Positions 1 through 56,529 of a stretch of 64,000 bases of DNA are shown here, piece after piece (positions within the stretch are counted from its first letter, which is position 1; every line of letters begins with the position of its first letter). Under the pieces are notes generated by a model that did not search any database, had not been told where the DNA came from, and worked only from the letters and a program-made list of their open reading frames with translations. This stretch comes from Branchiostoma floridae (lineage: Eukaryota > Chordata > Leptocardii > Amphioxiformes > Branchiostomatidae): the NCBI RefSeq assembly GCF_000003815.2, contig NC_049994.1:8030025-8094024 (forward strand), written 5' to 3'. Both the position numbers and the translations under genes were made by a program.

Positions 1-63
1 CGGTAGAACTATGAGAGTTGGTGTTAATTAATAGTTTTTGCTCGAAAGGTCTATAAAGACAGA

Positions 64-1631
64 CCTTGATCTTGATCTTGATTGGGTACTGGACAACGCC
101 CCTCAGTTGGGGCAAAGCGTCCAGGGGGAGTGCTGCGCCTTAATGTTCCCTGAGGCGTTGGAGAACTGCCTCCTTGAACTTTGGAGCGTCTGTGATCTCC
201 GTGACCTCGTACGGTAGAGAGTTCCAATCTCTCACGGTTTGTGGGAAGAAGGAATGTTTGTAGCAGTCTTTGTGAAAAGGTAGAGCCTTGTAAGAATTTG
301 GGTTTGAGTGTCGCGATTGGCGCGGTACAGGCTTTAGATGAGTTTCGACCGGTAGGGCTACTTTGTGGTGTCTTGCTTTCTGTAGAATTGTTAATCTATT
401 TGCTGTCCTTCTGTTGCGTAAAGTGTCCCACCCCAAATCAGAGACAAGTTTGGTGACACTATCATGACTATGATACGAATTTGTGACAAATCTAGCCGCT
501 CTTTTTTGAACGGACTCTAACTTAGCAATGTGCTCTTTGTGGTATGGATCCCAGGCAGCGCTGGAATACTCTAAATGCGGTCTAACAAGGGATGTATATG
601 CATTTGTTTTGACTGATTTGGGGCAGTTATAAAGATTGCGTCTCACAAAGCCTAACGTCTTGTTAGCCTTGGAAGCACTGTACTGTATGTGTTGTGACCA
701 AGAGAGCTGGTTGTTGAGTGTGACTCCTAAGTATTTGTGGTTGTTAGTCTCGGCTAGAACATGACTTCCTAATTTGTAGTCGTAGAGTTTAGGTTTACGT
801 TTGTGGGTATAACGCATAACAAAACATTTGTCCGGGTGTAATTTCATCTGCCACGTGTTTTGCCATGTATCTAATGTATTGATGTCTTCTTGTAAGAGGG
901 TGTGATCTCTGTCACTGTTTATCTCCCTGTAAATGACGCAGTCATCCGCAAAGAGACGGATGTTAGAGTTGAGGTTGTCGGCTAAGTCGTTAATGTACAC
1001 TAAGAACAGTAGTGGTCCGAGCACAGTGCCCTGGGGCACTCCAGAGACTACCTCTGCCCACTCTGAGTGCTCTCCCCCAACTACCACTCTTTGTTTACGA
1101 TTTTTGAGGAAATTAGAAATCCAGTGGAGAACCTTACCCCTAATACCATAATTTTGGAGTTTTAGGAGTAAGCGATCATGAGGTACTTTGTCAAAAGCTT
1201 TTGCGAAGTCGGTTATAATCATATCTGTTTGCGACCTGGTATCTAAAGAATGGGCTAAGTCAGTTGTAGTTAAAATAAGTTGGGTTTCACATGAACGCTT
1301 TTTCCTAAACCCATGCTGCTTGTCAGATAATATAGAGTATTTGTCAAAATGATCCATCATCTGTGATTGCACTATGTGCTCCATAACCTTACTACAAACA
1401 CATGTGAGAGAAACAGGACGGTAATTTGCAGGATCAGTCCTGTCCCCCTTTTTAAAGATGGGAGAGATATTGGCATGTAGCCATGGGGAAGGGATTTGGC
1501 CAGTTTCAAGTGATTTCTGGCAAATAATAGTCAGAGCAGGGGCTAACTCAGCAGCTGCTAGTTTGAGGATCCTTGTTGGTAGGCCGTCTGGTCCACTTGC
1601 TTTGTGTGGATTCAGATCTTTTAGGAGTTTG
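64..1631 (-). mobile_element. 5'-truncated non-LTR retrotransposon (LINE), copy 1
   Basis: Reading the minus strand, this encodes the C-terminal ~500 residues of a non-LTR retrotransposon ORF2: reverse transcriptase with the palm motifs DFAKAFDKVPHD, SGVPQGTVLGPLLF and FADDCVIY, followed by the long C-terminal region ending in LQRLREH and a stop at 140-142. It is nearly identical to copy 2 at about 29.4-31.6 kb, with only a few residue differences. Similarity to copy 2 begins at about 1631 (plus coordinate), so the 5' end is cut inside the segment before the RT; the first ten codons of the longest open frame are flanking DNA. The 3' end carries a short UTR and an ATCAAG-unit tail (64-83). The motifs fit the CR1/L2/Jockey group; I cannot fix the clade. 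The endonuclease domain is missing, so this copy cannot move on its own. Confidence 0.93.
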
Positions 1632-2923
1632 ACTGGTCTGAAGGATTTGTGAATTTCCATTGGTTAGGCTTCATCAAATAATAACACTGGGAAAGGCATT
1701 TGGGTCACAATCAATATTGATGTTCAGGTTGTCAACAATCTTTTGTAATAATGTAATTATTTTAGTAACTGCTATCAATTTACCAAAAGTGTTTGAAGGG
1801 GTGGCAATAATCAAGTTGCAATTATGAAATAATGTTCAATATTTTTCTGGTGATGTAGCTGACTTAAAGATTGAAGATCTCCAACAGATGTCAATTGAAT
1901 TTGAAATCTAACAATTTTGATATGCAAATCTCTAGACAGAAAAGTTTATTACAACTACATTTTCGTGGATAACTAAAGTTTTAACTATCAAATCAGCTCT
2001 TATGTATTCAAAATACACTTCATTGCCAGGTATACAACCGTTCTGCCTGTACAGGTAGGTAAGGAAAGCGAAACTCACGTGTTTGTTTGAAGAGTCCGGC
2101 TATCTCTGTGCTTCTCTATCTGTGCACGTCACTTTCACTAACACTCGCGAAGTCTCGTGGTCTTTGAGACGAGACTTACCGAGACCGGAAATGATGGTCT
2201 GGTATCCGGAAGTGACGAAACTCCAACTCGCGCCATCTTTCGTGAAAGGCAGGGGACCCGTGGTGGAAAATCTGGTAAAGGTTTGTGAATCCGCCCGCAT
2301 CGGGCATCTAGATAACCATTTCTTCTAACAAAGTGTGCTGTGAGCAAGTTTACAAACTGTAGATGATTGTCAGATGTTATTATTTCCGTGTTACCGCACG
2401 ATATAAGGCTGAGAAATGTAAAAGTGCGACAGGGATGTGTGATCAATGACTTGAAGCATGGGCACTAAATTTGGAAACGATAGCCGGGTGAAAAATCCAG
2501 CTCTGGCGAGTTTATAAAAGATGACAACGACATTTGTCACTTGATTTTGAAAATCATATAGCTTAAATCATAACATGAAGTGGTAGTATGCTTTGTTGTG
2601 AAGTTTTTGTGTGTGTTTGGTGCATTTTGACGCAGTATGGGAAAAATGAAAGTATGGGGGAGGGGGGCAGATTATTGTCCGACTACATTTCGACCTGGCT
2701 TCTGTTCTTAGATATTTTTGTGAGATTTAACGGCTGGCCTTTCTCTCTGATGTTAGAAGAAAACTCCTGCATATTTCCTGAATGCAAAGTGAAAACCATT
2801 TTTGTATATTCAGGGAGGTTTGATCTTACTACATGTTGCCCCCCTCCCCATGATTAGTCACGATCTTACCAAAGTTTGCCAAACTACATGTAAATTGTAA
2901 CACCGTGTTTTATTATTTCCAGA

Positions 2924-6611
<3,688 letters not shown>

Positions 6612-6880: not shown

Positions 6881-9527
6881 CTTTGTTGGCCTCTGTAGTG
6901 CTTGTGTTCATACGTTTAAGAGTGTATGTACAACATTTTCTGATTGTGTTAAGCAACAATCAAGGTATTATTCAGGTAGCAAACATGTATGCATTAGTGA
7001 TAAATGTATACCTTTGTCAAAGAATTATTTTTCAAACTCTATTTTTGTCACAACTTAATCCAACACTGCGGTATCTGGCATTTATTTAAAAGCCACAATG
7101 ATCAAGCCCTGTTTGCTTCTGAAAATACTTTTCTGCAAAATGTGGTGCTCGTTTCTGAATTGGTAATTTTGATGACATTACAGTCGTTATATTTTTTTTC
7201 GACAAAACCCAAGAGATTCCAAATAATCTTTTTATTGTACAATGCGAGTGACACTAAATACACATTCTTCCACTGTCATGTGAGTGTATTTAATAATAGT
7301 ATGGTTGAAAGAAAATGTAAATTGGTTTCATACCTACTTAAGATGTTTCTAATGCAAGAAATACTAAGGGTATGGGAGGGGGTAGCAGTTTGAATGAGCA
7401 TATGGTTGAAAGTGAGGTAAGGTGAGGATTTGGGGAGTATTAAAACCTTTAATATGTTTGGGGGCTAGTTCAAGATGATATTGATCAATTTACCCAGGTA
7501 TAACTGAATTTGACTGCAGGAGAGAAGCCATGTATTTGTCGACGACAAATTGAAAAGTGATAGAGTTTTCTAAGAAATCATCCTGGACTCAAGGCGGTTG
7601 GACAGATTTCAGTATGTCAAGTACTTGCTTCTGACCATTGAACTAGAAAGAAAGCATACCTTTGTGCAGAAGAACACAATTCATTGGACCGATCTTGACT
7701 CAATTAGCTGTCCAGCCAATTAGAGAGTAGCAATTAGTGGTTCAACCAATGAAAAGGCGGTTGCATGTCCATATGCATCAAATATATTGTGTTTTTATCT
7801 CCCATCTCTACGTTTGGACAGTGATGAGCGGGGCTATGCATTACCAGCCTTTTCTGCTAGAGGACGCTTCCAATACGTGCACATCAACCTGTCGCAAATG
7901 GCCACACAGGAAGTAAAAGATACACGATGCTCATTACGATAAATCAAACGCGTCACTGTCCCAACCAATCCGATCTTACGCAGCTGCTTTGGGTTCCTAA
8001 AATCATTACACTCCCGTTGCGACATACAAAGCTTATTTCAAGCGTTGAAAGGGGTGCAATACGTCACCAAGTGTTGGTCCCATGCGGTCCCTTAGGTTTT
8101 GTTTCCCCTCGGTTCACCCGGTAACCGACAAGTGGCAACAAAAGCGCTCGCTATCGGGTGTAGGGACATCTTTTCACGCCGCACGATCGGGTAGCGCCCT
8201 CCCTCCTACTACTGGTGTTTAGACCGCAAACAAACCGCCTTGTTTTGTGGTGTGTTTTTGACTATAAATATCCCACATTTTGTAACTCTTTACCGTTTGG
8301 CAAGATCAACAGCGTCACCTATTCCTAGGACAACGCCAAGGTGGTGCAAGTCCTCAAAACCTCCTACTGTCATTCTAACACGGGGGCAACAATTCTACTG
8401 TAATATTACAAGGTAGGTGTGTCAACCGTTTTATAACTTCGTTCACTAACTTGAGTGAACCGTTTATATTTTCTAGGCTACTTTTGTTAGAAGCATGAGA
8501 TATTCTTCTATCGCCTGAGGGCCTATGAAATACTTTGCTTGTAATCAATATCCTTTCTGGCATGTTATATGACGTGACGGCAAATAAATGCTTGACAACT
8601 ATGGTCAGGTTTTGGGTAGAATATGCTTTTAAGGTTTTGTTGTGTAGGAGGGAGGGGGGCATACATGTTGTTAACATGGTAACCCTTGTTGTTAACGCGA
8701 GTCACAACATTGTATAATGTGAACGACTTTCTAGCTAAACCTCACAATGCGTTAAGAGCCATTCAGAACCACTCGAAAAATGCATTACGGAGGAAGGGTC
8801 GCCTGTATGTGTTGGGTTAGTGTCAAACGTCAGCGGGCTACAGTATTGGGTGTTAAACTAGAGTGCAGCTGTTGGAAATGTTCAATGCCATTTGCTGTAC
8901 AACCTATTTATAGATGCTACAAAACGTCAATTGTTAAAATGCATGGCTTTTATAAAGGATTATATGTAACGTTACAGGGTATATGTCAAATATTGCCAAC
9001 AAAGAGTACAACACACAGTGTGACTTTTTTTTTAAATTCAAAGAGTATGTTATTTCAATGAACCTGGACCAAGCCTAATTGAACATTTATGCTAATGTTA
9101 CTACTACTACAAGTACTGCCAGTCAGTCTAGTGCACCGCGCACATAGATACGGTTTTAGGTGAGTGAAAATAGTTCGAAATGTTTAGAAAAAGTTTGAAA
9201 GTTCAGTAGTCAGTTCATCGTTCAATAACAGTTTGCGGGGGATATTTGTATCGACAACATGTTGTTTATATAACATGTCAATATTAAATTCTTATCAGAA
9301 AATTCTTATTCAAACCAACAGTTAATTGCTACAACAATGGCGAATCTCTATTCTTTGATGGTAATACCAAGTTCATTTTTACTAAATCTTCACATATTCA
9401 CAAATGTGATGACAACTACATATTACTCATTGAAGCCATACGGAAAAACGCAATGAATTGAAGCCATAACATATCGTAGCTACAAGAAAAACAAGCCACT
9501 TGAAAAATGTGTCGTTAACTACTTAAA
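6881..9527. other. Intergenic, no recognisable gene
   Basis: Between the NACA 3' end and the tandem triplet I see only AT-rich DNA with short open frames lacking coding character. A GC-richer patch at about 7.8-8.4 kb could hold a promoter or an old repeat, but nothing identifies it. Confidence 0.5.
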
Positions 9528-10412: not shown

Positions 10413-11336
10413 CAAACCGGGGCCCGGCCGGGTAGCTTTCGGGAGCAAAATGTATGATATATATAACACACCGAACTACAAATTTCACATTGCAAATTCA
10501 CAGTGTCAAATGTGTTCTCAATATAAGGGTACGCTTTGAATCATTTTGCGCTGTATTCAAATGCTCAAACACACTCTGAACGCAAATTTCTTAGAAGGGT
10601 TGAAATAGTATACATAATATACTTGCAACGTTCTTTCAAGTTAATGTGTAAAATACTTGGCTCCCACAAGGCTCAATGTAACACAATTACATTTTTACCT
10701 CCCGTGTTAGTAGTTAAGTGCATAATCCACCACATAATAGAGACGTATGCGACTTACCTGACTCCGTTTTGCAAGGCTTAGTATGAACGAGGCCTATGTA
10801 AACATGCGAGTAATAAGCTTTACACTTCAGACAAAAGTAGTATGTAAACCGTGCACGTTCAAGGTGTTATGTTTCTTACTTCTGTAGCTAGCTGCCAAAA
10901 CTGCGTAACAGTTACGTACGTCTGCTATTAGATATTATATTATGTGTAGAAAATTATGTCTCAGACATTCGATCGCGGAAAGAAGTTTTGGCTACGTTCC
11001 TTTCTCTTCTTCTTCCGCTTTTCTACCGTTCCAAACAAAATAAGGTCAATGACCTGGACCAGTCGACTCAGTCACCATGGTTACTAACAAAGAACACCGT
11101 AGTGTCAAACTTCATGATGTAGCAAGTGGTAGGACAGAGATGGAGGGGCTGGTCGCCACATTATAGGAATTTGAGCAATAATAAACAGAGCAGTAGTTTG
11201 TTAGGCTAGACCATGTAAAGGTAAACACTATGTATTTGGTTGCAAAAATATGATTTAGATATTAATTCTGTTGTACTTGTCACGGGCTCTTTGTAATGTT
11301 TTAATATCATTTCACCCGACAGTCACGGAGTAAGAA

Positions 11337-14300
11337 ATGATGCTTGCAGAGGCGACACCTGGCGGTTCGCATCTGAACCTCCAGAAGAGACGCGAAGTGC
11401 TTCAGGAGAACCAACGCTTCGCCCAGCAGATCCGCGGGTTAGAACTAACTTACGGCAAGATCGCAGCACAGCAGAAAAGCCTCATCAGCGCCTTAGAAAA
11501 CGGCATGAGCAGCCATAAGACGACTCCGATAAACACGCAGAAAGTCGAGAACCTTCAAGATGTCAGGAAATCTTATGACGTCTTACTGACTAGAGACATA
11601 GGCGCCGTCCAGCAAAGAAAGTCGCACCATACAGAAGTCTTGGAGACGCTCTTAAACGCGGTGGAAGATCTCAAGATCTTGAGAGATTCGACAAAGGCGG
11701 ACTTGGTTGAACCCATCTTCTATACAGAAATGAGCAACGCTGAGAGAGAACGCACAGCAGATCTCTTGGCAAGATGGAAGACTCTCTTAAAGGACGAGAA
11801 TGACTTGACTGTCTTGCACCACGAATATCCTAAGACTCCGTTCAAAGGAATAACGAGCGATAGACCTTGGTACAGTCTGGATCCGAGAGACGCTGCGAGA
11901 TTTGGCGGGATTTTGTCCCTCATACCTGTCACTTTGGACATCGCAAAAAAGACACACAGAGTGGTACAAACTGTGGCGTCGGGAGAAAACTCTATGCTAC
12001 AAAAAGATAGCCTCAAACTTCCAAGCGTTTTGTCGGACTTGGTTAAGTTTCATCCTAACTCGTCCGATGCCGAGCCTACTCGAGTTCACACGCAGCAACG
12101 CCGGAAGTGGGAGAAACCAAACGTCTTTGGAGAGGAGCGGCCGGAAGTGACGTACAGAAGAGCGGCCTCCGCTGTTTCGGATGTGCAGGACAACGAAGTT
12201 GCTGCGCCCAAGAGAAAACAGTGGTCAAAAGATCCTCTTTCTATGTCTACTCCAGGATATCTATCGAAGAATCCTCACAATCCGGGACATGTGGGCCAAA
12301 AATCAAACCCTGGAGTACACAATGGCAAAGGGAACCCAGGGACCCCAATTTCAAATATGACAAGAGGCCAGAGACAAGGCATGCAGGGAGCATCGGGGGA
12401 ATATATTCGCGTTATCGTTAAAGGTATGTAACGACCACAATATGTAATGATATTATGTAGATGTACTATATGTATTTGTATATGAAACTACAGTAATGTT
12501 TGGACATTTATTTCAGCCAAATAGATGATCGTCAAAGGATTGCAATATCACGTTGAAATGTTATAACATGGGACGGGATAAAAGTGTAACTTGTTCTGAT
12601 GTTATGGAAGAAGCTCAAGACCAACAGTCAGAAAATAATGGGACTTGCCCTATTTCTACTGCTTCTTCTGGGACGTGACAAACCGAGACGGGGGACGACA
12701 TAGGTTATCCGACAGGATCCGTTGCTGCAGACACGTCACGCGTCTCTCCCGGAAGTAGAAATATACATGTCCATTCCGTGAACAAAGCTGAGGAAATAAG
12801 TCTAAAATTTTGGCAAGTCCCAATTCTTCTGAGGGTTGGTCACGTTAAGATCAGTCTTAATTCATAACGTGTTTTACAAGCACAGATGAACTTTCATGAC
12901 GATCCCTTTCAGACATGATTGCTCCGCTCAGTGTCCAAGTTAAGGCCAACTCGGACAAACTCCAGGACGTGGAGGGACAAGTTCGGCAATGTTCGGCCCG
13001 ACTGACGACTCTGTCCGAACACCAGGCGGGCCTCGCTCTGAAAGTGTTCGAGGCGATTCGGAAGGACCTGGAGGAACATCTCAACACCAACATCCGGGAC
13101 ATCATCAAGACGGAAATGGAGACCTTAACACCGAGGAGTACTGAAGAGATTAGGTAATCATAAAGAGAGATTCTGTACACGGCAATGAAGCATTTCAGAA
13201 AGAGTATTTCGAAATTTAGAAAAGGAAGGTAAGAAGGGAGGAGGGAAGGAAGAAAGGAGGGAAGGAAAGAATGGAGGAGGAATGGAAGCAAGGAAAGAAG
13301 AAATTAAGTATGTAAAAAGAAGGGAGGAGGGATGGAAAGGAAAAGGAGCGAAGGAAAAAGGGAAGAGGGATGGAAGGAAGGATGGAAAGAAAAAGGAAGG
13401 GAAAACGAAGGAAGGAAAAACGAAGGAATGAAAGATTGGAGGAAAAGAGGGAGATGGAGGGAAGGTAGGTACCAGGTAGAGGCGGAATGATGGATAGGTT
13501 GATGAAGGAAAGGAGGGATAAAAGAAGGGAAGGTTGTGAAAAAGAATGGGAGAAAGTTAATTTCTATTTATGTATTAGAAGTGGTGGTTTAAAGAAGGAA
13601 GAAAAGTGGGAGGGAATGAAACTAATGGATTCAGAGAAGGAGTGATTAGAAGGAACGGATTATATTAAGGAGAAGTTGAGACCAGGACATTTCCGACCTA
13701 TGGAACTGTTTTTCTTGTATGTCCCAGGAAACAGATGGAAGAGTCGATGAAACAGAAGCTGGACAGTTTCTACCGTGTGGAGGTCCAGCGACTGGCCAGT
13801 CAGCTGCACCAGGACACGCTCCGGACACAGAAGGAGGTGGAGGGGCTCAAACAGTCACAGAGGGACACGGACCTCAGAGTAACAGGTAAGTAAGGCTTTC
13901 CTACCTCAACTTACGACATCAAAATCATTCTCATCCCCGCATTCCATTTAAGGCTTAGGTCCTACTTGTACCGGTGCCCGGCCGGGCTCCGAAGTTACAA
14001 ATTTGTCCCGGCAGACTGCCGGATATCGGGAGGTACCCCTCGGTGCCCCCCTCTAGGTCACGGCGTCCCTTTGCTATCAGGTCCCGGGTTTATTTTAAAT
14101 TCTACTTAAATTCAACATGGTGCCCAGCTGGGTCCAAAAATAGCCCGTTAGCCACAAGGTGTACAAGTCCCATAGGGTCACGTAAGGGTCGCGCCAGAAA
14201 GTGACTAAAAACGTTAACAGCCTATGAATTGCTCAGCAGGGCCCCTTATTCTAACTGAAACCTAAGCCTTACGCAGCCTCCTAAGTTGCTTTTTTGGCTA

Positions 14301-17282
14301 CACCTTAGTGACGAAATCTTTCAATGTAGTTTCAATATCATTGCAAGTATTTGCAAATTTAGTAATGAATCTCCCACTTTTGTAGTCCGTGAAAAATGGC
14401 ATCATTTAAGTTTAGTTTAGGATACATTTAGACAATTTGAACGTCTGGCTAAGGGGGTGAAGTCTGCTATCTCCGATGACCTTGCTGTTTTGTGTCCTAC
14501 AGAAGAGAAGTACGGTCCGTTACAGCGTCAACTGGACCAGCTCCGGGAGCAGAACACTGCGGAGCTGCGCCGCCTGGAGGCGCTCGTGGTGGAGGAGAGG
14601 AACCGGCTGGAGCAGAGACTCAAGAGGGAGGAGGAGAAAATAGAACACAGGTAAGATCTTAAAGATGCAGGACCTTAAGGTGAAGTGGGGCTCTTTGCTC
14701 CAATAGAATGGCTGTTGTTTTGTTGTCTAATAGAAAATACAACACAAGTAAGATCTTAAAAATGAAGGACCTTAAGGTGAAGTGGGTCTCTTTCTGCTCC
14801 AATACAATGACTGTTAATGTTATTTCGTTGTCTCGGGTAGTATAATAGAATACAACACAGATAAGATTTGCAAGATGAAGAACTAGGGGTGGGTACCTGT
14901 ACGGTGTACCGGTACAAACCCGTTTTTCTTGTTGGACCTGTGCAGAAAAACCGGACCTGAAGAAAATCAGTAGACCGGCATGCATTTACGTGATTTGAAG
15001 AAGATAGTTGACAGTCATTTTACTAAGTTTCTACAGTCAAACTTGGTATGAGTTAACAGAGGCATTAATGTTGCTTACATGAAGGCAGAATTTTAAAACG
15101 CCAGTAGAATTTGGATACTTCATTAAATAGATTCCTTTGTAGCGAAGTGGACCATTGTTTTGAGTATCGTCCATTCGCAAGTTTTCACACATAACTAATT
15201 CCAGGTTCAGGTCTGGACCTGTAGTGGCTTTTGAACTTTCTTTCTAAGTCTTATCGTTCTGGTGACGAAAAAAGGCACACAGACACCCTATATTTGCGAG
15301 CCAAAGCAATGATCATATAATTTATACTCACCATCATCATATCCACGTTCAATCTTCCAGGTTTGCAACTGGGGCTGGAATTCACGAAGAGAGTCATCAA
15401 GACCGGACCGCCCAGTCCGAGCTGTTCAAGTACGTGCAACAAGAACTTGGTCGTCTGCAGTTGAAGGTGCGCCACCTAGAGGACGCCGTGGTACAGCAGC
15501 GGGCGGACACAGGTCCTAAGGGTAAGAACATATTCGCTTTTGCATAAATATTGATGCTTTTGCAAGTAGCTAGTGGTAATGCGATGCAAATATGCGTCTT
15601 CGCTTGTGAAGCTCCTTCATACACGGAACCACGTGCACTGGGTTTACGTTACCATCCGAAATTACGAATGCAATTCCTTACCACATGTGTGAGCTAAGAA
15701 TGACCCTAGGATCGAACCTCTTATCCACATAATTTGGGGAAGCATTTGTTTCTATTTTGCTTTTGGACAGACGAGGACAATGTGGCACTGCACTCAAATT
15801 AGTAACTTATACCAACAGGGCCACATACATAGTAAAGACAGAAGCTTAAAGGTAAAGATATTCCTTTCTTTTACCTCCCCGACTCGACTGAAGTCAGCTA
15901 GGTACCCATTTTTACACCTGTGAAGTGAAGAAGGTCGTGTAAGATAGCTTTCCCAAGGACACAACGTCGGGGGCACGGCGGGTATCGAACTCGGGACCTC
16001 TAGGTTCCGAGCCGAACGCTCTACCAGTTACACTACCTAAACACGACGCATTGGGGAAGCATTGTGGTCGCTTACCACTTCCGGATCCGCTATTCAGTCA
16101 TAAAATTCTAAACAATGTTTACCCTCTGTCTAACAGAGTTCATGATGCTTATTTTGAAGGCACCCTCCGTGGAGACCAGTTACTGTGGATCGCCCGTCAG
16201 GTGGGAAACAAGTACTGGAACCTCGGCATCAAACTGGGCCTGAGTCTGGGGGCACTGGGCGAGATCAAGCACGCCAACCCGGTAAGGACGGACCCACGGT
16301 CCACATCTGTCGTCTTTGTAAGAAATAAAAGATGATGTCAAGGCATAGATGGTCATATGATTGAATTGGCTTAGCCTTTTTTTGGTCCGTCACAGCTTTC
16401 GCAATAGTAGATGTAGGTGGCGCTTTGTGGCGAGAACACAATCCCACACGTGACTAAATTTGTATCCCCACTTGTCCCGGATTAGAACTGGGGTCGACTT
16501 TCTTATCCAGACCGCCTCCTTGGGCCATCGGATCCACCTGTTGTCTTTCCTGTCTACGATATCGTACGAGCGATGAGACCGGGCACGAAAGTGTGAAATG
16601 TCCATACGGCGTTCTTCATGGCGGATGACCCATTAGTTCTATCACGTGCAGGGTTGTAGCCAACTGCAGCCTGAAATCATTTTCAGTCCCCTTGATTTTG
16701 AATGGGAATCCTATCAGGCACCGAAGGCATGGCGTGACGTTGCGCGCCGTTTCTAAGGGGTCTGGGTCCCAGAAAATTTTTAAATCAAGACCCTCTGAAA
16801 CACTATTTCCTGCATTTTGATGTGCAAATTTTGCTTGTAGACTAAGCTGTTCAATGGCGTCTGTTTTGGTGAAGAAGAACACATGGGTTTCATTTTTTTA
16901 TATCTTTATATATCAATTTTTGTCTGTCCCAGGGGACGGAATGGGGAAAACCTTTTAATTTCAGTCCCCAGCTGCAAAATTCCTTCAAAGGACTGAAGGA
17001 CAGGTGCTGGCTACAACCCTGTTCAAGTGACTCGTATAATTGAACGAACGTGACGGAAAGTCACACAAGTATAACGACGATTATCTGTGTATGCTACATT
17101 TCACAGTGTGTGTGTTTTTCTTCCACACACAGGGTGACGTGGATCAGATGGCCTTCGCGATGTTGTTAGACTGGCAGCGGCAGTACGGGGATGGCGCTAC
17201 CGTGGACAGGATCGTGGACTCGCTACACCAGCTGCACCTTACTAAACTGGCGGACAGCGTCAGGGATAGTCTACCACCATGA
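11337..17282 (+). CDS. Death-domain protein with coiled coils (gene C)
   Basis: Seven exons with matching phases: 11337-12423, 12913-13153, 13728-13885, 14503-14650, 15361-15521, 16139-16281, 17133-17282 (TGA 17280-17282), giving 695 aa. The N-terminus (about 15-60) is helical. Residues ~70-215 are a diverged copy of the helical region found in genes A and B: VRKSYDVLL at the start and FGGILSLIPVTLDIAKK at the end. About 215-360 is low complexity and polar. Exons 2-5 (about 363-598) are heptad-rich coiled coil with charged E/K/R/Q runs. The last two exons form a Death domain (about 605-690: LLWIARQVGNKYWNLGIKLG, then LLDWQRQYGDGATVDRIVDS and LADSVRDSL). No CARD was found upstream. Likely a cytoplasmic oligomerising adaptor in cell-death or immune signalling (inferred). 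The exon 6 acceptor is the second AG of CAGAG, chosen because it keeps phase. The 5' end may include an upstream exon; an AG directly precedes at about 11323. Confidence 0.82.
13196..13560 (+). repeat. Polypurine (GGAA/GGGA-rich) tract in gene C intron 2
   Basis: About 360 bases made almost only of G and A on the plus strand, dominated by GGAAGGAA, GAGGGA and AAGAAG. The minus-strand frame reads as a meaningless LPSFLPSLLPSYLP string. It is a degenerate GGAA microsatellite. Confidence 0.9.
13951..14270. mobile_element. Inverted-repeat element in gene C intron 3
   Basis: The terminal inverted repeat AAGGCTTAGGT...ACCTAAGCCTT is perfect over 11 bp. The left interior holds CGGTGCCCGGCCGGG, linking it to the CCGGGGCCCGGCCGGG family seen near 18.3, 18.9 and 23.1 kb. 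It is about 320 bp with no ORF of note. Confidence 0.65.
14883..15221. mobile_element. Dispersed inverted-repeat element, copy in gene C intron 4
   Basis: It begins CTAGGGGTGGGTACC and shares ordered blocks with the element at 4700-5073 in NACA intron 3. The right terminal repeat is missing or decayed here. Confidence 0.6.
15848..16042 (-). repeat. tRNA-derived SINE (minus strand)
   Basis: On the minus strand a tRNA-like head (A-box-like GTAACTGGTAGAGCG, B-box-like GAGTTCGATACCC) is followed by a central part reading TTGGGAAAGC, CTTACACGACCTTC and GGTGTAAAAATGGGTACCTA. The central part aligns block by block with the SINE at 33150-33346. It lies in gene C intron 5. The paired A and B boxes show it is a polymerase III retroposon and not a functional tRNA. 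Confidence 0.8.
16649..17021. mobile_element. MITE-like element in gene C intron 6
   Basis: The ends CAGGGTTGTAGCCA and TGGCTACAACCCTG form a near-perfect 14-bp terminal inverted repeat about 370 bp apart, with no ORF. This size and structure fit a non-autonomous DNA transposon. Confidence 0.75.
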
Positions 17283-29232: not shown

Positions 29233-29379
29233 TTGCAATATGTGACTATGGACATATTAAAGCAAAAGGAAGAACAGTGGCGTTCGGCTTTGCATGCATG
29301 AGTAACTGTTGCTGATGAAACTGTATATACACTCTGAATCACCCCATTTCTTCATCATTTTCAAATATATGTGTACAGT

Positions 29380-31558
29380 GTTCAGAGATCAGGACTCAAT
29401 TTGTGCGTTACATTGTAAGTATTCAAGCTGATGAAACCGCCATAAGAACTGAGCTACAGGATTACAGTAATAATTTAGCCAAACGGAACATTGACAACTG
29501 CACAACAGAAGAGCTTTATAACGAATTTGTGGACAAAATCAAGATAGTGATGGACAAATATGTCCCATCCAAAACTATTAACAATAATAATTTTTCACCT
29601 TGGATTAACAACAAGGTTAGGAAAATACATAAGAAAAAACAGCGAGCCTACAACTCTTATCGTAAAAACCCAACAACCGAGAACTTGACTAAATTCCGCA
29701 CTATTCGCAAACGAGCAAAAAAGACTACCAGACAAAACTACCGTAAATATGTAAATTCTATATGTTCTGATTCCCCCAAGAAGTTTTGGTCGCACATCAA
29801 ACACTTAAAACAGGATACAACTGGGATCCCTAGTCTTAAGCAGAAAGGAAAGCTAGAAACAGATAACAGAAACAAAGCTAACATCCTTAACAACCAATTC
29901 AGCTCTGTCTTTACACGAGAGGATGAACACATGCCCCACCTCCCCCGTAGTTCTATCCCCACTATGCCTGACTTTTCCATCAATGTAAACGGAGTCACCA
30001 AACTCCTAAAAGATCTGAATCCACACAAAGCAAGTGGACCAGACGGCCTACCAACAAGGATCCTCAAACTAGCAGCTGCTGAGTTAGCCCCTGCTCTGAC
30101 TATTATTTGTCAGAAATCACTTGAAACTGGCCAAATCCCTTCCCCATGGCTACATGCCAATATCTCTCCCATCTTTAAAAAGGGGGACAGGACTGATCCT
30201 GCAAATTACCGTCCTGTTTCTCTCACATGTGTTTGTAGTAAGGTTATGGAGCACATAGTGCAATCACAGATGATGGATCATTTTGACAAATACTCTATAT
30301 TATCTGACAAGCAGCATGGGTTTAGGAAAAAGCGTTCATGTGAAACCCAACTTAGTTTAACTACAACTGACTTAGCCCATTCTTTAGATACCAGGTCGCA
30401 AACAGATATGATTATAACCGACTTCGCAAAAGCTTTTGACAAAGTTCCTCATGATCGCTTACTCCTAAAACTCCAAAATTATGGTATTAGGGGTAAGGTT
30501 CTCCACTGGATTTCTAATTTCCTCAAAAATCGTAAACAAAGAGTGGTAGTTGGAGGAGAGCACTCAGAGTGGGCAGAGGTAGTCTCTGGAGTGCCCCAGG
30601 GCACTGTGCTCGGACCACTACTGTTCTTAGTGTACATTAACGACTTAGCCGACAACCTCAACTCTAACATCCGTCTCTTTGCGGATGACTGCGTCATTTA
30701 CAGGGAGATAAACAGTGACAGAGATCACACCCTCTTACAAGAGGACATCAATACATTAGATACATGGCAAAACACATGGCAGATGAAATTACACCCGGAC
30801 AAATGTTTTGTTATGCGTTATACCCACAAACGTAAACCTAAACTCTACGACTACAAATTAGGAAGTCATGTTCTAGCCGAGACTAACAACCACAAATACT
30901 TAGGAGTCACACTCAACAACCAGCTCTCTTGGTCACAACACATACAGTACAGTGCTTCCAAGGCTAACAAGACGTTAGGCTTTGTGAGACGCAATCTTTG
31001 TAACTGCCCCAAATCAGTCAAAACAAAGGCATATACGTCCCTTGTTAGACCGCATTTAGAGTATTCCAGCGCTGCCTGGGATCCATACCACAAAGAGCAC
31101 ATTGCTAAGTTAGAGTCCGTTCAAAAAAGAGCGGCCAGATTTGTCACAAATTCGTATCATAGTTATGATAGTGTCACCAAACTTGTCTCTGATTTGGGGT
31201 GGGACACTTTACGCAACAGAAGGACAGCAAATAGATTAACAATTTTACAGAAAGCAAGACACCACAAAGTAGCCCTACCGGTCGAAACTCATCTAAAGCC
31301 TGTACCGCGCCAATCGCGACACTCAAACCCAAATTCTTACAAGGCTCTACCTTTTCACAAAGACTGCTACAAACATTCCTTCTTCCCACAAACCGTGAGA
31401 GATTGGAACTCCCTACCGTACGAGGTCACGGAGATCACAGACGCTCCAAAGTTCAAGGAGGCAGTTCTCCAACGCCTCAGGGAACATTAAGGCGCAGCAC
31501 TCCCCCTGGACGCTTTGCCCCAACTGAGGGGCGTTGTCCAGTACCCAATCAAGATCAG
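29380..31558 (+). mobile_element. Non-LTR retrotransposon (LINE), copy 2, with 695-codon reverse-transcriptase ORF
   Basis: An uninterrupted frame from about 29319 to the stop at 31488-31490 (first start-like codon, GTG, at 29403) encodes the linker after the missing endonuclease, the full reverse transcriptase (KASGPDGLPTRILK, DFAKAFDKVPHDRLL, SGVPQGTVLGPLLF, FADDCVIY) and the C-terminal region ending LQRLREH. The 3' UTR (31491-31545) matches copy 1, then AATCAAGATCA marks a shorter tail than in copy 1. The N-terminal endonuclease is absent, so the 5' end is truncated. The open frame and near identity to copy 1 point to recent insertion. It ends about 150 bases before the first SHMT coding exon and probably lies in SHMT intron 1. 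Confidence 0.93.
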
Positions 31559-31726
31559 AAGAGGTCTACACTGTAACACTAACAGTATGGTAACATAACG
31601 TTACAATGTTTATTATGATGTGCTTAGACATAGGGATAGATCATAATGCTGGAAGTCTGCCACCATCGGTTGCTTTGTAAAATTGACCTTTGTTTTTGTC
31701 TCCACAGAAGACTTAATTCTGACACC

Positions 31727-45577: not shown

Positions 45578-48500
45578 ATGAATATTGCACACGAGGACAT
45601 ACTAAGAAGGCATCGCACAGATATAGTGAAAGTCTTAGACGTGGCTCACGTCAAAGACAGTCTCATCGAGAATGGAGTGTTTAGCACGCAGCTTTGGGAG
45701 GAAATCGAAAAGGCAGGCGGGGAGTCGAAACGAGAAAAGGCGTCCCGGCTTCTAGACAGACTGCCGACCCGAGGTCCCAACGCTTTTTCGTGTTTCTGTG
45801 AGGCGCTCGTGGCAGGGGAGTATGATTTTCTAGGGGAGCAGTTGACACAGGAAGGTGAGTAGTATAGAACTAGAATACAATATTACAAAGCATACCCTGT
45901 TTCTCATCTTTCAAAGACACAAGGTAGTCCAAATTCTTAAATGCTGTGCATATCTGAGTATCTACAGACACAGTAGCAATATGGGAACTAAAACTGAATA
46001 TTTGCAGTAAAAAAACACCTAGGAAAACTTACTAGGTGTGTGTTCTTTGATTTTCTTCTGTAACATACATAATTATGTTAAAGAATTAGTGAGGTGACTG
46101 GCACATGCAGTAACAAGGTTTTTGTTGTTACAGCTGACCAACAACATGCTCTAGAGTCAATCCAGGCACGTGGTAGACGAACACCAAGCTCCAGTCATCA
46201 CTACTTTCACGAAGGAGCTGTGAATGGTCAAGTAAGAACTCTTCTATTTGTACTTAATATGTACCTTGTAGCACATACTGAATAGGTACCACTTACTCGG
46301 TTCATCTTATTCACATTATCATATACCTTTGAATGATTAAATTGTATAAATTGAATATTACAATCCTCTTAAAAAGTTAGTAATGTTTTCATGAACAGAA
46401 CGAATTGTAATTATTGTACATGTAAGATGTTTGACTTGGTTGTATAACTGATCAACAGTTTTAAGTAATTCAAATCTCTTGTGAGTTACGTTCTTCCAAG
46501 CAACAGTTTTTATGCCTAACTTCCTGTTTACAATCCATGTTACCTTAATTGAAAGGAAACCTAAAGAAAAAGAGAGATATACTGAAAAATTGAAAGCATA
46601 GCATTTTGTCCAGACTATAAAAAAATCTCTTAACAAGACACTTGTAACGTCTGTAGCTATGGTGTAATCTTTATGTAAACAAGTAGTGGAACAAAGGATG
46701 TGTATAAATGGTTAGGATCATGTTACCTATTGTGATCATGCATTTGAACACCTGTGACTCATGTAGTTTTGTGCCAGGTGTGCTAATGCCATCATCACTT
46801 TTTTATCAATTTCTTCATTTTTGCTTTTAAAAGAATAAGGCAAGATTGGAATATCCACAATACATAAAACTAAGTTGGGGGAAAAGTCTGTGCAGACCCT
46901 GGTGTCAACTCTTTGAGGATGAACTGAACTAAACTGAACTGAAAAGTCTATAAAAGTCAGAGTCAGATGCCAGTTCTCACCCTAGCCTTATGTTTTTTGT
47001 GAAGATCTGCTGCTGAAGTTTTACTTAGAAATGTCTGAGAAGCTAAGAAATAAATTGCTTTGGCCAGAAACTACTTCAGAACTACCGGTATAACAAACTT
47101 AAAGTATGACCAATGTAAGTTTTGTTTTTCACTGTGTTCAACTGTTCAATGGAAAAATTACGAGCCCCATCATGCATCTAACTTGTTTTAACATTCAAAA
47201 TACTGTATTACAAATCATAAATTAAATATATTGGTTCTCTTACCAATACCATATCCCTTCTTGAAACCGCATAGATAATGAGAGATTTTTTTTAAAGGTT
47301 TGAATTGGTTGTATTTGTTAACTAAGATTTGTAATATTGTTTTCCAGACACAAACAATGGACCAGTCCCTAAACGGACAGATCAACAACATCAGGAAGGA
47401 ATATCGGAAATGCTTGTTGAGAGGGAAAGGAGTAACTCTTACAAAAGCACTCAACAAAGTCATTCACTTCAAGAAGCGTGGCGGCAAAAGAGCCTCAGAA
47501 CAGACAATAACGTCCTTGAAATACATCAAAGAAGCTTTAAAAAGTCCTTCATTTGACGAATCAAATGTGTCGGCTTTGACTGAAATTCTTGAGCTCGTTG
47601 AGAAATTGAAGCACATTAGAGACGAGCTTCAAAAAGACGGGTCTGTTCCTGATAATGTGTCAAATTTGAGTTCCATGTTGGCTGATGGAGCCGACTTTTC
47701 CACTCTCCACAACATGACTCTTAGCATAGGCATAGATTATCTGAGAGACTTTGGCATGCAGGGGATGGACGCCTCCAGTAAATTGAAGTTTGGCTCAGTT
47801 CTGGTGCTCATCCCTTATCTCTGTGACCTCTCTGAACAAGCAGTTCATCTGACAAAGAGACACAGCTCAGATAGAGTGGGGGACTCTCCTACAAGGAAGG
47901 TATGTGACACATAGACACACTCCTAGAATAATTCTTTAATAGTCAATTTCCTATCATTCTATTACAAAGGCTACAATTTTATATGGTTACAGCAACAACA
48001 CCAAGAGATTGAAATTTAATTGCTTTTGGCTTGTCAGTGTACAAAAAAAACAATGTATGTGTGTGCATGTGTGTGTGTGACTGTATGTGTCTGTGTGTGT
48101 GTATGTCTGTTTCTGTGTGTGCCTGTGTCTTGTGTCGGTGTGTGTTTCTGCCATACCAATTATGATTGACATGTATACATAATTCAACATTGCCATACAT
48201 CTTCAGTGCTGATATATTTATCTGTGGGATTGGAAGGGACAGAAGGCAGTATGTTTCAGAATGGCTTAAAGTCTACCATATTTGATTACCTTGACAACTT
48301 CTAGAGAAGTACAAAAACAGATACCTGTATAGTGTAGAAATGTACAAATGTATGACCTTGTGTTTTGCACAGCTGAAAGGATGGAGCCATTCAGTGATGT
48401 AGTAGTGGAGGGAGTAGCCATGTCACCTTACCCTGAACCACAGGATAATGTGTTCTTACCTGAAAGTAAATCTTCTGCAAGGTGCGTTGACAAAATATCA

Positions 48501-51500
48501 TCATACATGGGAATTAAACAGAATACTGTGAAATGAGATGGTACATGCACATGAAGTACAGTCAATTCTGTAATCAATTTCCTGCTGCATGTACCACTTT
48601 TTGGCGGTCCCTTAGAGAACTTTTCCAATGGATATAAGCATCAAGCCCAGAAGAGGTCCATGTGGCCTTGTGTTGAACAAAACTCGCAATGGGATAAAAA
48701 CCCTTTATGTCATACCTGGGCCGCGTTAACGTTCGATACAGTTTATCCGGACTGTGCGATAAAAAGCCGTACCACACAGGCTCCATACCACACAGGCTTC
48801 AAACACGGTGTATTCCGCATCACTCTTGGTCCCAGCCCTCCCGCCAAAGGCCGTCTGGCAATCCAACCCGCGGTCCGTCTGGAACCTCGGGTGATGCAGA
48901 ATACAACACATGTACACCGGGTTGTATTCTATATGTATAAGTAACCATCTATAGACCAGACCATCTATAGACCAGATTTTGTCAGTGCTCTTCTTGGACA
49001 GTTTCGGCTTATTAAGAAAATAATATTACATATTGTAAATTTCTTTAGGAGCTACAGGGACATGGAGGGCACTATGATGTCAAGGCTTGACCGAGCCTCT
49101 GAGAGAATCAGTCAGCTGGAACAGACACAGATGCGCTTCTCACAAGACAGGGACCGTAACAGCAACGGCATCTTGGAGGAGATCAAAAAGCTGAACTCCA
49201 AGATGGACATACAAGCATTGAAGATAGACCAGATGGACAAGAAGATAGAACATCAGTCACTACTACTGCAGCAGAATGAAGACATTAAGAACAGTTTGTT
49301 TGATGTATCCAACCACCTGGAGTACATAAGGAAGGCATTAGGAGGACAGACGGAGAAGAAAACAGCACTGGAGGCAAAAGTCAGCAGTTTAGAAGAACGA
49401 GTCCTGAATCTTCTAGATCAGGAAATTGATAGATCCAAACTGATCGAGGAGATACAGGGTGTAGAAAGTAAGTGTGTGGTAGCTTTCTCCAGTTTTGTTG
49501 ATTTAGGCCTCACCAATTTGTTTCCTAGGTTCTCGGACGTTTTAAGGTGAAAATACATGCATGGAACAAGTAGACATCATAAAAGCAGAGTACAGGAAGG
49601 TAAACTTGAATCTGACTTAAAAAGTCTTGTATAAATCAAGGGTGAGTGAATATTGTGATATTTATTGTGTAATTCAATTTAATATGCACTTAAAGTTTGC
49701 AATGGTACCTGAATTGATTAACGTTGTAGTACATACATGAGGAATGCAATATTCAGTTCATAGGTTTATTGATATGAGGTAGATGTTATATCTTTTAAGT
49801 CGAAGGAGATCTTAAATGAGTTTTACTTTTTGTGCATGATGTTTCAGATGAAGTTGTCGAGCTGAAGGAATGGTTCCAGGATGGGGACCTGTTCATCACA
49901 GAGAGGTTAGAACAGATGAACAGGCACCTCCTGGATGTGCTGTTAAAGTTGGAACGGGATTCGTTAGGTCAGTGGCATATACCTTTACATGCAATCTTTT
50001 TGATGAGCTTCTCTGTGGTGAAGTGGAGGCATTCTCGCAAACTCAGAAAGTTGTGAAGGCCACCAAACTATTCTCAAGCAAATTGGAATGGTGTTGACCT
50101 TGTGTGTCTGCCTGTTGTGAAGTGTGTTATACAATCTCTTGCTGCAAGGGGATATTTGGCCCCACAAACCAATGGGCCCCCTAGTTGGGCAGGCCACTAG
50201 GATCATGATCTGTATGTAGTCAGGCTACCTATTCTTTATGTAGGGTACAATGTATACTTGGCAATTTGTGGCACATGATATCTTTATGCCTAACAAATCA
50301 TCTTCTATGTTCTATGTTATCTATGTTGAAAATTGAATGACTTGTTCCTTCTCTGTTTACAGGTCGTCAACTCTCTGCAGCTATTGACATGGTAGAGAAA
50401 CAACTGAAGTTCAAAGAGTTCACACGGTTTGCCCGAATGTTAGGATTCTCGGACCAAGAGAGCACCAAAATCCGCAGTGCTGCTCGAGACAATTTTGGCC
50501 AGCAAAAGTCCGAACTTCTTAGAAAGTGGAGAGAAAAGAATGGCAGCAATGCCACAGCCAAGCACTTAGAGCAGGCATGCAGAAACACTGGTCTTTCTAC
50601 ACTAGCAGACAAGATAGCTAGGATATCTGGTGCCCCAAGTGCAGGTAATCCATTTTTTTGTGCTTCCTGGATCAGCTTCATATTACATTTGCATGTTCAC
50701 CTCATACAGTCTGACAAACAACCTGACCTGTTATTTTATGTGTGTGTGTGTATATGTGTGGTGTCTTTGTGTGTGTATGTGAAGTGCCACACAAATGGTT
50801 TTAAGGTGCTATCTCACTGGACTTGGGGTACTGGTGTGGCACTGTTAATTTTGACGATTTTCCCTCACACTGATGTGCAGTACTGTTGCCTTTTTAGCCT
50901 TATCCCGGTAATAGACAGGTAATTGGAAATCACAGCATTGTCAATTTATGAAAAATCACTGTAAAATGATGAAAATGCACCAAAAAGAGATTTGTTATGA
51001 AATAATATAAACTGTATGATACATGGTGCAACATAAGTCACATTAAAGTGAAATTCGTTATGTTATTGCTGTTTGTGGTAGCGGGAAAATGGAGACTTTG
51101 CAGTGGTTTTAATTTCGCGGTAGTGTCATAGACTGCAGTCTCATACTATAATGGAAAAATGTTTGCGGTGGTTGTAAGTGCGTGGTGAAGTGGCCACCAC
51201 AAAAAAACGCAAACATTTCTGCATTTACAGTAAGTTTGTGAAAATGGCAGCGTTGTCACTGCCAAAAAAATAAATGCTGTAAAATGATTAGAAATTCACC
51301 CAAATTAGCTTTCCAGTGGTAAGAAGATTACTTTAAATTGATAGTTGGTGACTTGAAATGGTTGCTGGCATGGTAGCGGCATGGCACTGTGAGGGCATTG
51401 TGGGGGCACTATTGGGGCACTATTGGGGCACTGTTGGGTCCCCGTGGGGTTTTATGGCCACCTGCATTGTTCTTTAACTTTAAAAAAAGTTGCGTTTGCA

Positions 51501-53977: not shown

Positions 53978-56529
53978 ATGAATTCATCTCACCGGAACAT
54001 ACTTCAAGCACATCGGCGGCGTATTGTCAAGGATTTAAGGATCAGTCATGTCAGAGAAAGCCTTATTGGGAGTAGAATCTTCACTGATAGGATGTGGGCA
54101 GAAATAGAAAACACAGGAACGACATGGGAAGACAAGGCTTCTGCCCTAATGACCGACGTACCAACTCGTGGTCCTGGTGCTTTTTGGGCTTTCTGTGAGG
54201 CACTCATGACAGGAGGGTACGAGCACCTTGGGAAACCACTGATGGAGGACGGTGAGTGGCTGACGTAGGGTAGCACGAAACATGTGACGATACAGGTCAC
54301 ACTATGATGTGCCCTTTTTCGCCAGTACTAAAAGAGCTGGTTTGATCCTTACCGCTTACCGGAGGATTAGGAGTCGTAATTATGTATACAGGGGCTGCAG
54401 ATGAAGAAAGGTGGAAATGGTCATCGTTTGGGTCTAGATGGACAGATTTAAAAATTTAAAGATATCAACTCTTACTGCACACACACATATTATTTATTCC
54501 CAAATAGGACTTGTAGAATGTATATCTGTTTAATCAAAAGGTAATAGATTGATTAGTTCTGCGAATGAATACCTAACTTGCTCAATGTTCAAAAGGAGAA
54601 AATACTATATGCTTCCATAGTGGTAAATATAGTTGATAATAGTGGTAAATGTAGTTGATAGCAGCAGTGGTTTATTCAATTCCATATTCACGAGCGCATT
54701 AAGCGCAGGCAACCAAAGGCTGTCTGAGTTGCGCTGACGGTTACATCAACAGGTCATCAGAAATTACATCTATTTTCGGTATAATGTGATTAGATGTTAC
54801 TTTGATGATTGTGTTTGCTGTTACAGCTTTATGCGGCGAGATAACCAGCATCAGAGAGGCATATAAGGCATGCATATCAAGGGGACAAGGAGAAACTGTG
54901 TTAAAAGCACTCAAAAACGTTATCCACTGCATAAAGGTTCGAGGCAAAAAAGAATCGGAACAGATTGTAACATCGTTGAAATACATCAAGGATGCTATGA
55001 AAAGTGATTTGTTCGATAAATCCAATGTGTCTATCCTGACTGACATTCTAGATTTAGTTGAGAAATTGAAGAACATTCGAGACACCCTTTTCAAATATGG
55101 ATCAACTTCTGAACATGTGGACAAATTGGGTACTATGTTGGCAGACGTTGCTGACGTTTCTGATCTCTATATGGTAACTGTCCGTGAACGTTCAGATTAC
55201 TTGAAGCAGTTTGGCATGAAAGGGCTGGATAGCTCAAGTATATCAAAATTTGGATCCGTCTTGGTCCTTGTCCCCTACCTTTGTGACCTCTCTGAAAAAG
55301 CTGTTCAAAGGATGAAGCAACCGCCCATTGGTCCAACAGGTGGCGTCTCTTTCATCAGCAAAGGTAAGTGCAACAAATACCAGTTTGCATACTGAAACGT
55401 TGCCTAAATTGCCTAGGTTTTAGTGCCTTAACCCTATCTAACGGGGGGGGGGGGGGTCTCAAAGTGCCCCGCGCAAACATTGACGTCGTATGACTCCGAC
55501 GAACGACGTGTTCTAGGACTGCCAAACTAGGTGAGTTCTCCTAGAATTATTATTGAACAATTGAACAATGAGAAGCCCTTATTAGCCAATGTTTATTATA
55601 ACTTTAATTATAATGAAAATTCCCCATTTAGACGGTTAGTCAATAAAATCACAGTAAGACATCATACTTACTTCATATTACATCATAACTTCATATTACA
55701 TCAAAATTACAGAAATTATGACCCTTTACAAGTACATCATCTCCTGCAAATTTGGTGATATATAATTGTAAGCGAAGCCGTTTTGAAATTACGAAGGGGG
55801 GGAGGGGCAATGACCCCACCCCGGCCCCAGGAATTTAAAAAAAGCCCGGTGGAGATAGGGTTAAGGTCTGGCGATACTAACGAGATCATACTGAAATGAT
55901 GAGAAGCTGTAATGAATAGTTGATATGTAGCAGCCAAATCATCATCAGGTAAAGATAATTAAATACTTGCTTTTAAAGGCAGGTGGCATACCCTGTTAAT
56001 CCACTGTGTTTTGGGTATGATATTGGAAGGTGAGACGGCCAATTCCCTTCTTCCGTCAAGTGCACCCCCAATCCTGTGCTGAAGAAATATTTATTTTTTT
56101 CCAACGCAAGATTTATGCGGATCCACCTTCTTACCCTTGATAACAGCGTCTACATGCTAACTTAAGTTGTTGATCTAGTTGAGTGTTGAATGTTGATTAG
56201 AGATTGAGTTTATCTGTTAAAATGTTCAATAAGTTTCATTTTCCAATTTTGACAAAAGTCGATCTGCCTTGTTATCATCCACCCCAGCACTGTGAGAAGC
56301 GGGGCTATTAATTTGATATCATGCGGGATATCATGATATAACAAATATATTTTTACGTTTACTTCACATAATATCTGCCGCAAAACAAATCGATAGATAT
56401 ATACATACTTACCATTCTACTTTGTGATTTACATTGTACGGCAGATGGAGGTGAAGCAGCTTTGGGTGCAGAGGGAATTACCTCCTACGGAAAGCTGGGC
56501 GATGATTTATTTGACCAGCAGGAAAAAAG
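53978..56529 (+). CDS. CARD protein, tandem paralogue of gene A, 5' part only (gene B)
   Basis: Three exons: 53978-54251, 54827-55363 and 56445-56529. Exon 1 is a CARD aligned end to end with gene A (SHRNILQAHRRRIVKDLRIS, ALMTDVPTRGPGAFWAFCEA). Exon 2 is the same helical region as gene A exon 3 (SEQIVTSLKYIKDAMKS, DILDLVEKLKNIRDTL, SKFGSVLVLVPYLCDLSEKA), with over half of the residues identical. Exon 3 (phase 1 in, phase 2 out, like gene A exon 4) is a short acidic linker. Phases are consistent through all three. No coiled-coil or Death exon is visible downstream before or after the satellite at 57.25-59.4 kb, so the gene is either truncated or continues outside the window. The start was set to match gene A; the frame is open further up to 53855. 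There is no counterpart of gene A exon 2. Confidence 0.72.
55443..55456. repeat. Poly-G run
   Basis: Fourteen consecutive G in the gene B intron after exon 2; length is prone to sequencing error. Confidence 0.9.

Follow-up and report, generated by a model that had tools for sequence, protein, structure and literature searches.

Within 64,000 nucleotides of Branchiostoma floridae contig NC_049994.1 (C16; positions 8,030,025 to 8,094,024, forward strand; in the following the window), three genes, here A, B and C, join death-fold domains with one further domain. A first-pass annotation, made from the letters alone, had taken this domain as common to all three genes and as belonging to no named family. 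This raises the question of what the domain is, from where it descends, and what a protein that carries it next to a CARD and a Death domain could do. Overall, the earlier interpretation is partly supported by our analysis.

Exons and domains of genes A, B and C

The features that we place in the window are given below in window positions; coordinates with a contig prefix refer to the whole contig.

45578..45854, + strand: gene A CARD exon, from ATG to the donor GTGAGT, ending in phase 1; Pfam CARD 8.6e-13
46134..46231, + strand: candidate gene A exon 2 of 98 nt, bridging the phase between the CARD and domain exons; relaxed scan
47348..47899, + strand: gene A exon with the SPACA9-like domain; A-B alignment, profile searches, AlphaFold2 model
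49049..49467, + strand: gene A coiled-coil-like exon; open frame and splice sites, coiled coil by eye
50363..50644, + strand: gene A Death domain exon; Pfam Death 2.7e-12, splice sites, matches at three other loci
53978..54251, + strand: gene B CARD exon, ending in phase 1; Pfam CARD 3.3e-10
54827..55363, + strand: gene B exon with the SPACA9-like domain; 58% identity to A
11424..11951, + strand: gene C SPACA9-like domain, inside the open frame 11334-12431; Pfam PF15120 26.2 bits
12900..14654, + strand: gene C coiled-coil-like open frames, by eye
16153..16281, + strand: gene C Death domain, first part, bounds by eye; no match at E 0.01 for this frame alone
17133..17279, + strand: remainder of the gene C Death domain, up to the stop codon; Pfam Death 0.00098 for this frame alone, below cut-off

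The bounds given earlier for the domain exons of A and B are borne out by our splice-site reading, i.e., the exon of A is preceded by ...TTTTCCAG and followed by GTATGT, and that of B stands between ...TTACAG and GTAAGT. The annotated order of CARD, middle domain, coiled-coil-like exon and Death domain holds as well. As had been claimed, Pfam places a CARD ahead of the domain in both A and B and a Death domain after it in A; for C, the downstream Death domain is recovered once the two parts are joined by eye (Pfam Death 9e-8). The coiled coils of A and C are putative, i.e., they were judged by eye from the translations, and Pfam gives nothing above cut-off in these parts.

For gene A, a strict scan found no exon 2, and the relaxed scan yields two candidates with one common donor (46134-46231 and 46155-46231). 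The exons ending at 47899 and starting at 49049 do not match directly in phase. For the model developed below, we infer one transcript per locus. Gene B does not end with the domain: in the stretch from the window end (8094024) to the next full CARD (8109524), matches to the later exons of A mark B's likely coiled-coil-like exon (about C16:8101388) and Death exon (about C16:8103543). That both lie beyond the window edge would account for their absence from the earlier annotation of B. In gene C, no CARD was found. Its domain lies inside an open frame, as annotated, but starts nearer to residue 30 than to the residue of about 70 given before. The gene C region also contains a purine-rich stretch of GGAAGG type (13189-13563), which opens long meaningless frames on both strands. 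Elsewhere in the window, retrotransposon-like open frames with reverse transcriptase are found at 143-1663 (- strand) and 29319-31487 (+ strand), with Pfam RVT_1 values of 3.4e-36 and 1.1e-35, respectively; the open frames beside them, 54-395 (- strand) and 31235-31573 (+ strand), start nearly alike.

We also compared the three domains with each other. A and B are identical at 96 of 165 positions (58%, 165 aa, gapless, E 4e-64). The respective numbers are 30/109 for A and C (E 1e-5) and 28/116 for B and C (E 2e-4), where both E-values are those of a single comparison. With gene C as a single query, the sole A-type copy matched appears at E 1.63, and a profile-profile comparison of C with six A-type copies (see below) gives a score of 41.6 (Prob 84%, 164 columns). 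Judged by these alignments, C is a distant relative of the A/B middle domain, and the claim of one region common to all three genes stands.

The family across the genome

We searched the whole assembly (513 Mb, 431 contigs) with the domain of A and found it in seven places: A, B, C16:8110567 and C16:8119526 (both directly downstream of the window), one copy each on contigs C15 and C6, and a partial copy far off on C16. Four of the seven lie on C16 within about 43 kb, which agrees with the earlier suggestion of a locally expanded family.

All six full-length copies (6/7 loci) have a CARD upstream on the same strand, and in all six the donor of the CARD exon is in phase 1. Pfam CARD (PF00619) is above cut-off for A, B, C16:8109524, C15 and C6, while the CARD at C16:8116911 was seen by similarity to the CARDs of A and B, Pfam giving no match. 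The distance from CARD to domain is about 7 kb on C15 and about 22 kb on C6; no similarity was found among the paralogues in the stretches between these two exons. A half-length CARD match at about C16:8107825 (locus positions 3825-3974), upstream of the CARD at 8109524, is perhaps a decayed or a different CARD exon.

A Death domain follows at four of the seven loci (A, B, C15, C6), in the same order and on the same strand at all four, and those of B, C15 and C6 are 45-54% identical to that of A. Pfam Death (PF00531) is above cut-off for A, downstream of B, on C15 and C6, and for C when joined. Stretches like the coiled-coil-like exon of A are found at three of the seven loci (A, B, C15; E 0.01). 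Two of the C16 copies and the partial copy gave no Death match on their downstream side. That is, some copies may lack one or both of these parts. The C6 copy is followed within 3 kb by two Death matches, at C6:22795362 and 22797989 (locus positions 362-601 and 2989-3267), which are either tandem domains of one gene or belong to two genes. The partial copy (C16:1617432, - strand, locus positions 7866-8296) consists of two pieces that do not share a frame, and a search of 30 kb around it found no CARD; it is possibly a pseudogene or a split exon.

Among the six full-length copies, all 15 domain pairs show dN/dS values of 0.24-0.49, i.e., the domain is coding and under purifying selection. The respective dS values range from 0.71 to 1.74, such that the pairs are partly saturated.

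Likeness of the middle domain to SPACA9

The view that no named domain matches fails most directly for gene C. Its domain scores 26.2 bits for Pfam SPACA9 (PF15120) and 28.4 bits as a trimmed piece, both above the curated cut-off of 25. Against the PDB, gene C has six matches at E up to 1, each of them a SPACA9 sequence (best 9e-5), and profile comparison gives Prob 97%. The annotation had held that a match to a known domain, or a failure of C to align with A and B, would speak against it; the former occurred for C, the latter did not.

The A/B type joins SPACA9 at the profile level. For A alone and B alone, Pfam gives no SPACA9 match at E up to 10, and SPACA9 is likewise absent at E up to 10 when the A+B profile is run against the PDB. 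No A/B-type copy (six full-length and one partial) is above the Pfam SPACA9 cut-off; the C6 copy is the sole one listed (13.5 bits, E 0.06, below cut-off). We thus class the A/B type as SPACA9-like and not as a SPACA9 member. Since neither A nor B on its own matches a Pfam family above cut-off, they would probably stay unlabelled in a routine scan. The sub-cut-off Pfam matches of A and B alone (LAMB4, DIL, TRF, DED and others) were rejected, among them DED for B (E 0.08-0.09), since just one of seven members matches it. When A alone is run against the PDB, SPACA9 is absent, and a phage decoration protein (0.013) was taken as a chance match.

Searched against the PDB, a joint profile of A, B and C puts the six SPACA9 sequences in the first six ranks (E 2.4e-6 to 1.8e-5). 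With four more paralogues added, SPACA9 again takes the top six places (2.3e-6 to 3.1e-5). Since C could drive this result, we rebuilt the profile without it. With the six A/B-type paralogues alone, SPACA9 still comes first among 177,635 PDB sequences, with a weak E of 0.022, and the alignment is collinear and runs end to end (5-168 to 7-160). This search lists 13 rows with E up to 10; they include five of the six SPACA9 sequences, the sixth being missing, and azurin (E 0.051) sits between SPACA9 rows.

For the profile-profile comparison, the SPACA9 profile was built from four PDB chains and two stand-alone SPACA9-type genes of the same genome. The latter lie at C8:13597500-13604500, partly masked by a run of N, and at C8:7411500-7421000, where the first exon was not found; both consist of several pieces with splice-like ends. 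The six-copy profile scores 35.9 against this SPACA9 profile (P 4.8e-5, 143 columns), falling to 30.0 without the two stand-alone genes. Shuffled-column controls (400 per side, 800 in total) reach at best 21.3 and 21.6, and reversed ones 12.6 and 12.4. Taken singly, B (24.1) clears the best shuffle of 21.6, while the other five copies score 15.1-21.5. A separate profile comparison gives Prob 68%, and the identity of the paralogues to the SPACA9 chain 7un1 is 17-19%.

Family and SPACA9 have in common a YGG/FGS..LIP motif and a D-x-S-x-L block. As A and B singly, as well as A+B, miss SPACA9, the link depends on the whole family. From the profile evidence, the A/B-type middle domain probably shares descent with SPACA9. 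A tree of domain, C and SPACA9, in which C has a long branch and stands between the paralogues and SPACA9, was not used as evidence. In A, B and C, a single open stretch encodes the domain, in contrast to the separate pieces of the two stand-alone genes. This would fit a retrocopy origin, and intron loss may also account for it.

Predicted fold, lost contacts and proposed role

The AlphaFold2 model of the A domain (input: A and six relatives, C among them) is all-helical, with pLDDT 83.1 and pTM 0.80. Its helices span 3-41, 56-63, 70-96, 100-109, 117-133 and 141-175. In the text of PMC9564825, SPACA9 is a four-helix bundle in which helix 1 and helix 3 are followed by two short cap helices; in the model of A, we count one cap helix (at least 4 residues) in each place, not two. 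The predicted helix order, i.e., long, short element, long, helix, cap, long, is compatible with that description.

The same text names Q20, Q21, T61, R64 and N123 as tubulin contacts and Q20, Y117 and H37 as SAXO contacts of SPACA9 (PMC9564825). The four SPACA9 chains from the PDB, all of mammals, keep 7/7 of these residues (Q20, Q21, H37, T61, R64, Y117, N123), and the two stand-alone genes keep 5/7 and 3 of 4 readable ones. In contrast, A keeps 0/7, B 1/7 and the other four paralogues 0/7; gene C keeps two (Q21, Y117). An alignment at 17-19% identity is uncertain near gaps, such that single residue cells are not to be leaned on, but the pattern of contact loss across the aligned family is clear.

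The death folds on either side were compared with the PDB as family profiles. For the CARD, caspase-9 ranks best (1.8e-15), followed by RAIDD (7.3e-8) and then cell death protein 3 and Apaf-1 (about 1e-6). The Death profile matches FADD (4.2e-9), FAS (1.4e-8), CRADD (2.4e-5) and PIDD-CC (4.8e-5). Ankyrins and THO complex subunit 1 rank above CRADD, which makes partner guesses from the Death list loose ones. No caspase domain is among the Pfam matches of the scanned frames, which cover part of the frames of the loci. That is, the family CARD resembles the prodomain of caspase-9 and differs from it by the absence of a caspase domain in these frames. The Death domain resembles FADD, while the family has a CARD upstream where FADD has a DED.

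With a probability of roughly 0.58, we read A and B as CARD-Death adaptors in which a repurposed SPACA9 fold would serve as scaffold. They would form a small paralogous family of probably cytoplasmic proteins with CARD, SPACA9-like helical domain, coiled-coil-like part and Death domain, and gene C would be a relative with the domain and Death. The middle domain would probably have descended from SPACA9 and lost the residues that hold tubulin and SAXO; given this loss, it is most likely a repurposed helical scaffold, which would space, orient or oligomerise the two death folds. Through its CARD, the protein would enter CARD assemblies of the caspase-9/Apaf-1 type, and through its Death domain those of the FADD/Fas type. 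It would thus couple or gate both, as RAIDD/CRADD; the oligomeric state and the direction of signalling would be part of the same proposal.

The comparison with RAIDD/CRADD goes as far as the layout. At A, B, C15 and C6, CARD and Death stand in this order in the DNA (with part of the frames scanned for enzymes), i.e., the CARD is on the N-terminal and the Death domain on the C-terminal side as in RAIDD, which is also the next CARD match after caspase-9. RAIDD consists of CARD and Death only, whereas the family has SPACA9-like and coiled-coil-like parts between them, its CARD is nearer to caspase-9 and its Death domain nearer to FADD. Compared to SPACA9, the family shares the match of C above the curated cut-off, the end-to-end profile alignment, the helical model and an FGG/YGG..LIP motif near the domain end. 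It differs in that the PDB chains of SPACA9 are short (159-224 aa) while the family holds the SPACA9-like domain among others, in the mostly missing tubulin/SAXO contacts and in the single open stretch of the domain DNA.

An alternative that we consider unlikely is that the domain still binds tubulin, centrioles or axonemes via another surface, which would yield a microtubule-anchored adaptor reporting to caspases in a PIDDosome-like way. The RAIDD-containing PIDDosome reportedly answers to extra centrosomes (PMC5287111), RAIDD/CRADD and PIDD-CC are both among the CARD/Death profile matches, and gene C keeps Q21 and Y117. SPACA9 is reported to bind microtubules on their luminal side (PMC9564825), and when overexpressed in U2OS cells it decorates and stabilises them (PMC13373224). 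However, the six paralogues keep at most one of the seven contacts although the stand-alone genes retain most of theirs, and a CARD-Death protein would be bulky for the lumen. A more speculative variant, to which we give somewhat less credit still, is a SPACA9-like domain that senses axonemes, centrioles or soluble tubulin via a new surface and thereby switches caspase-9/FADD-type assemblies. It would be a cytoskeletal counterpart of the PIDDosome that arose in one lineage when a single-exon SPACA9 copy was fused to CARD and Death exons.

Convergence, by which an independent helical bundle would have come to resemble SPACA9 and C would be the sole true SPACA9 relative, is improbable as the origin of the middle domain. 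Such an origin would account for the failure of A, B and A+B to find SPACA9, for the low identity to 7un1, for Prob 68%, and for the five of six single copies that do not beat the best shuffle. It fits poorly with a collinear alignment over the full length, with SPACA9 as top PDB match in the profile built without C, with a score far over 800 shuffles, and with C being linked to both sides and the YGG/FGS..LIP motif and D-x-S-x-L block being held in common. Finally, we hold it still more improbable that the loci encode CARD-only or CARD plus middle-domain decoys for caspase-9/Apaf-1, with the Death exons belonging to neighbours or to some isoforms: the CARD is nearest to caspase-9, Death is unmatched after two C16 copies and the partial copy, and the gap between CARD and domain on C6 is wide, but order and strand agree at A, B, C15 and C6, and the Death domains of the latter three are 45-54% identical to that of A.

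A diverged SPACA9 between CARD and Death would extend the SPACA9 family into signalling and would be a case of a cytoskeletal protein or fold borrowed for cell-death or immune wiring. It also raises the question whether the SPACA9-like domain still touches microtubules. SPACA9 is reported as a microtubule inner protein and has been located to cilia, sperm tails and the manchette (PMC9564825, PMC13373224); its fold was described in 2022 as unique among human proteins, Foldseek having found none similar (PMC9564825). In the open-access literature that we searched, we found no paper that pairs SPACA9 with a death domain or caspase recruitment, and none that names PF15120.

New combinations of death folds are a known trait of amphioxus (PMC2575513, PMC3196919), and the family resembles these in the shuffling among CARD, DD, DED and other modules. 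As partners, the accessible text of PMC2575513 names TIR, NACHT, TNFR and caspase, not SPACA9. Thus, shuffled death-fold adaptors are already known, while the SPACA9-like partner domain is, as far as we searched, new. The death-fold repertoire of the genome is very large: we count at least 149 CARD matches with 150 of 187 candidates scored and at least 150 Death matches with 150 of 588 scored.
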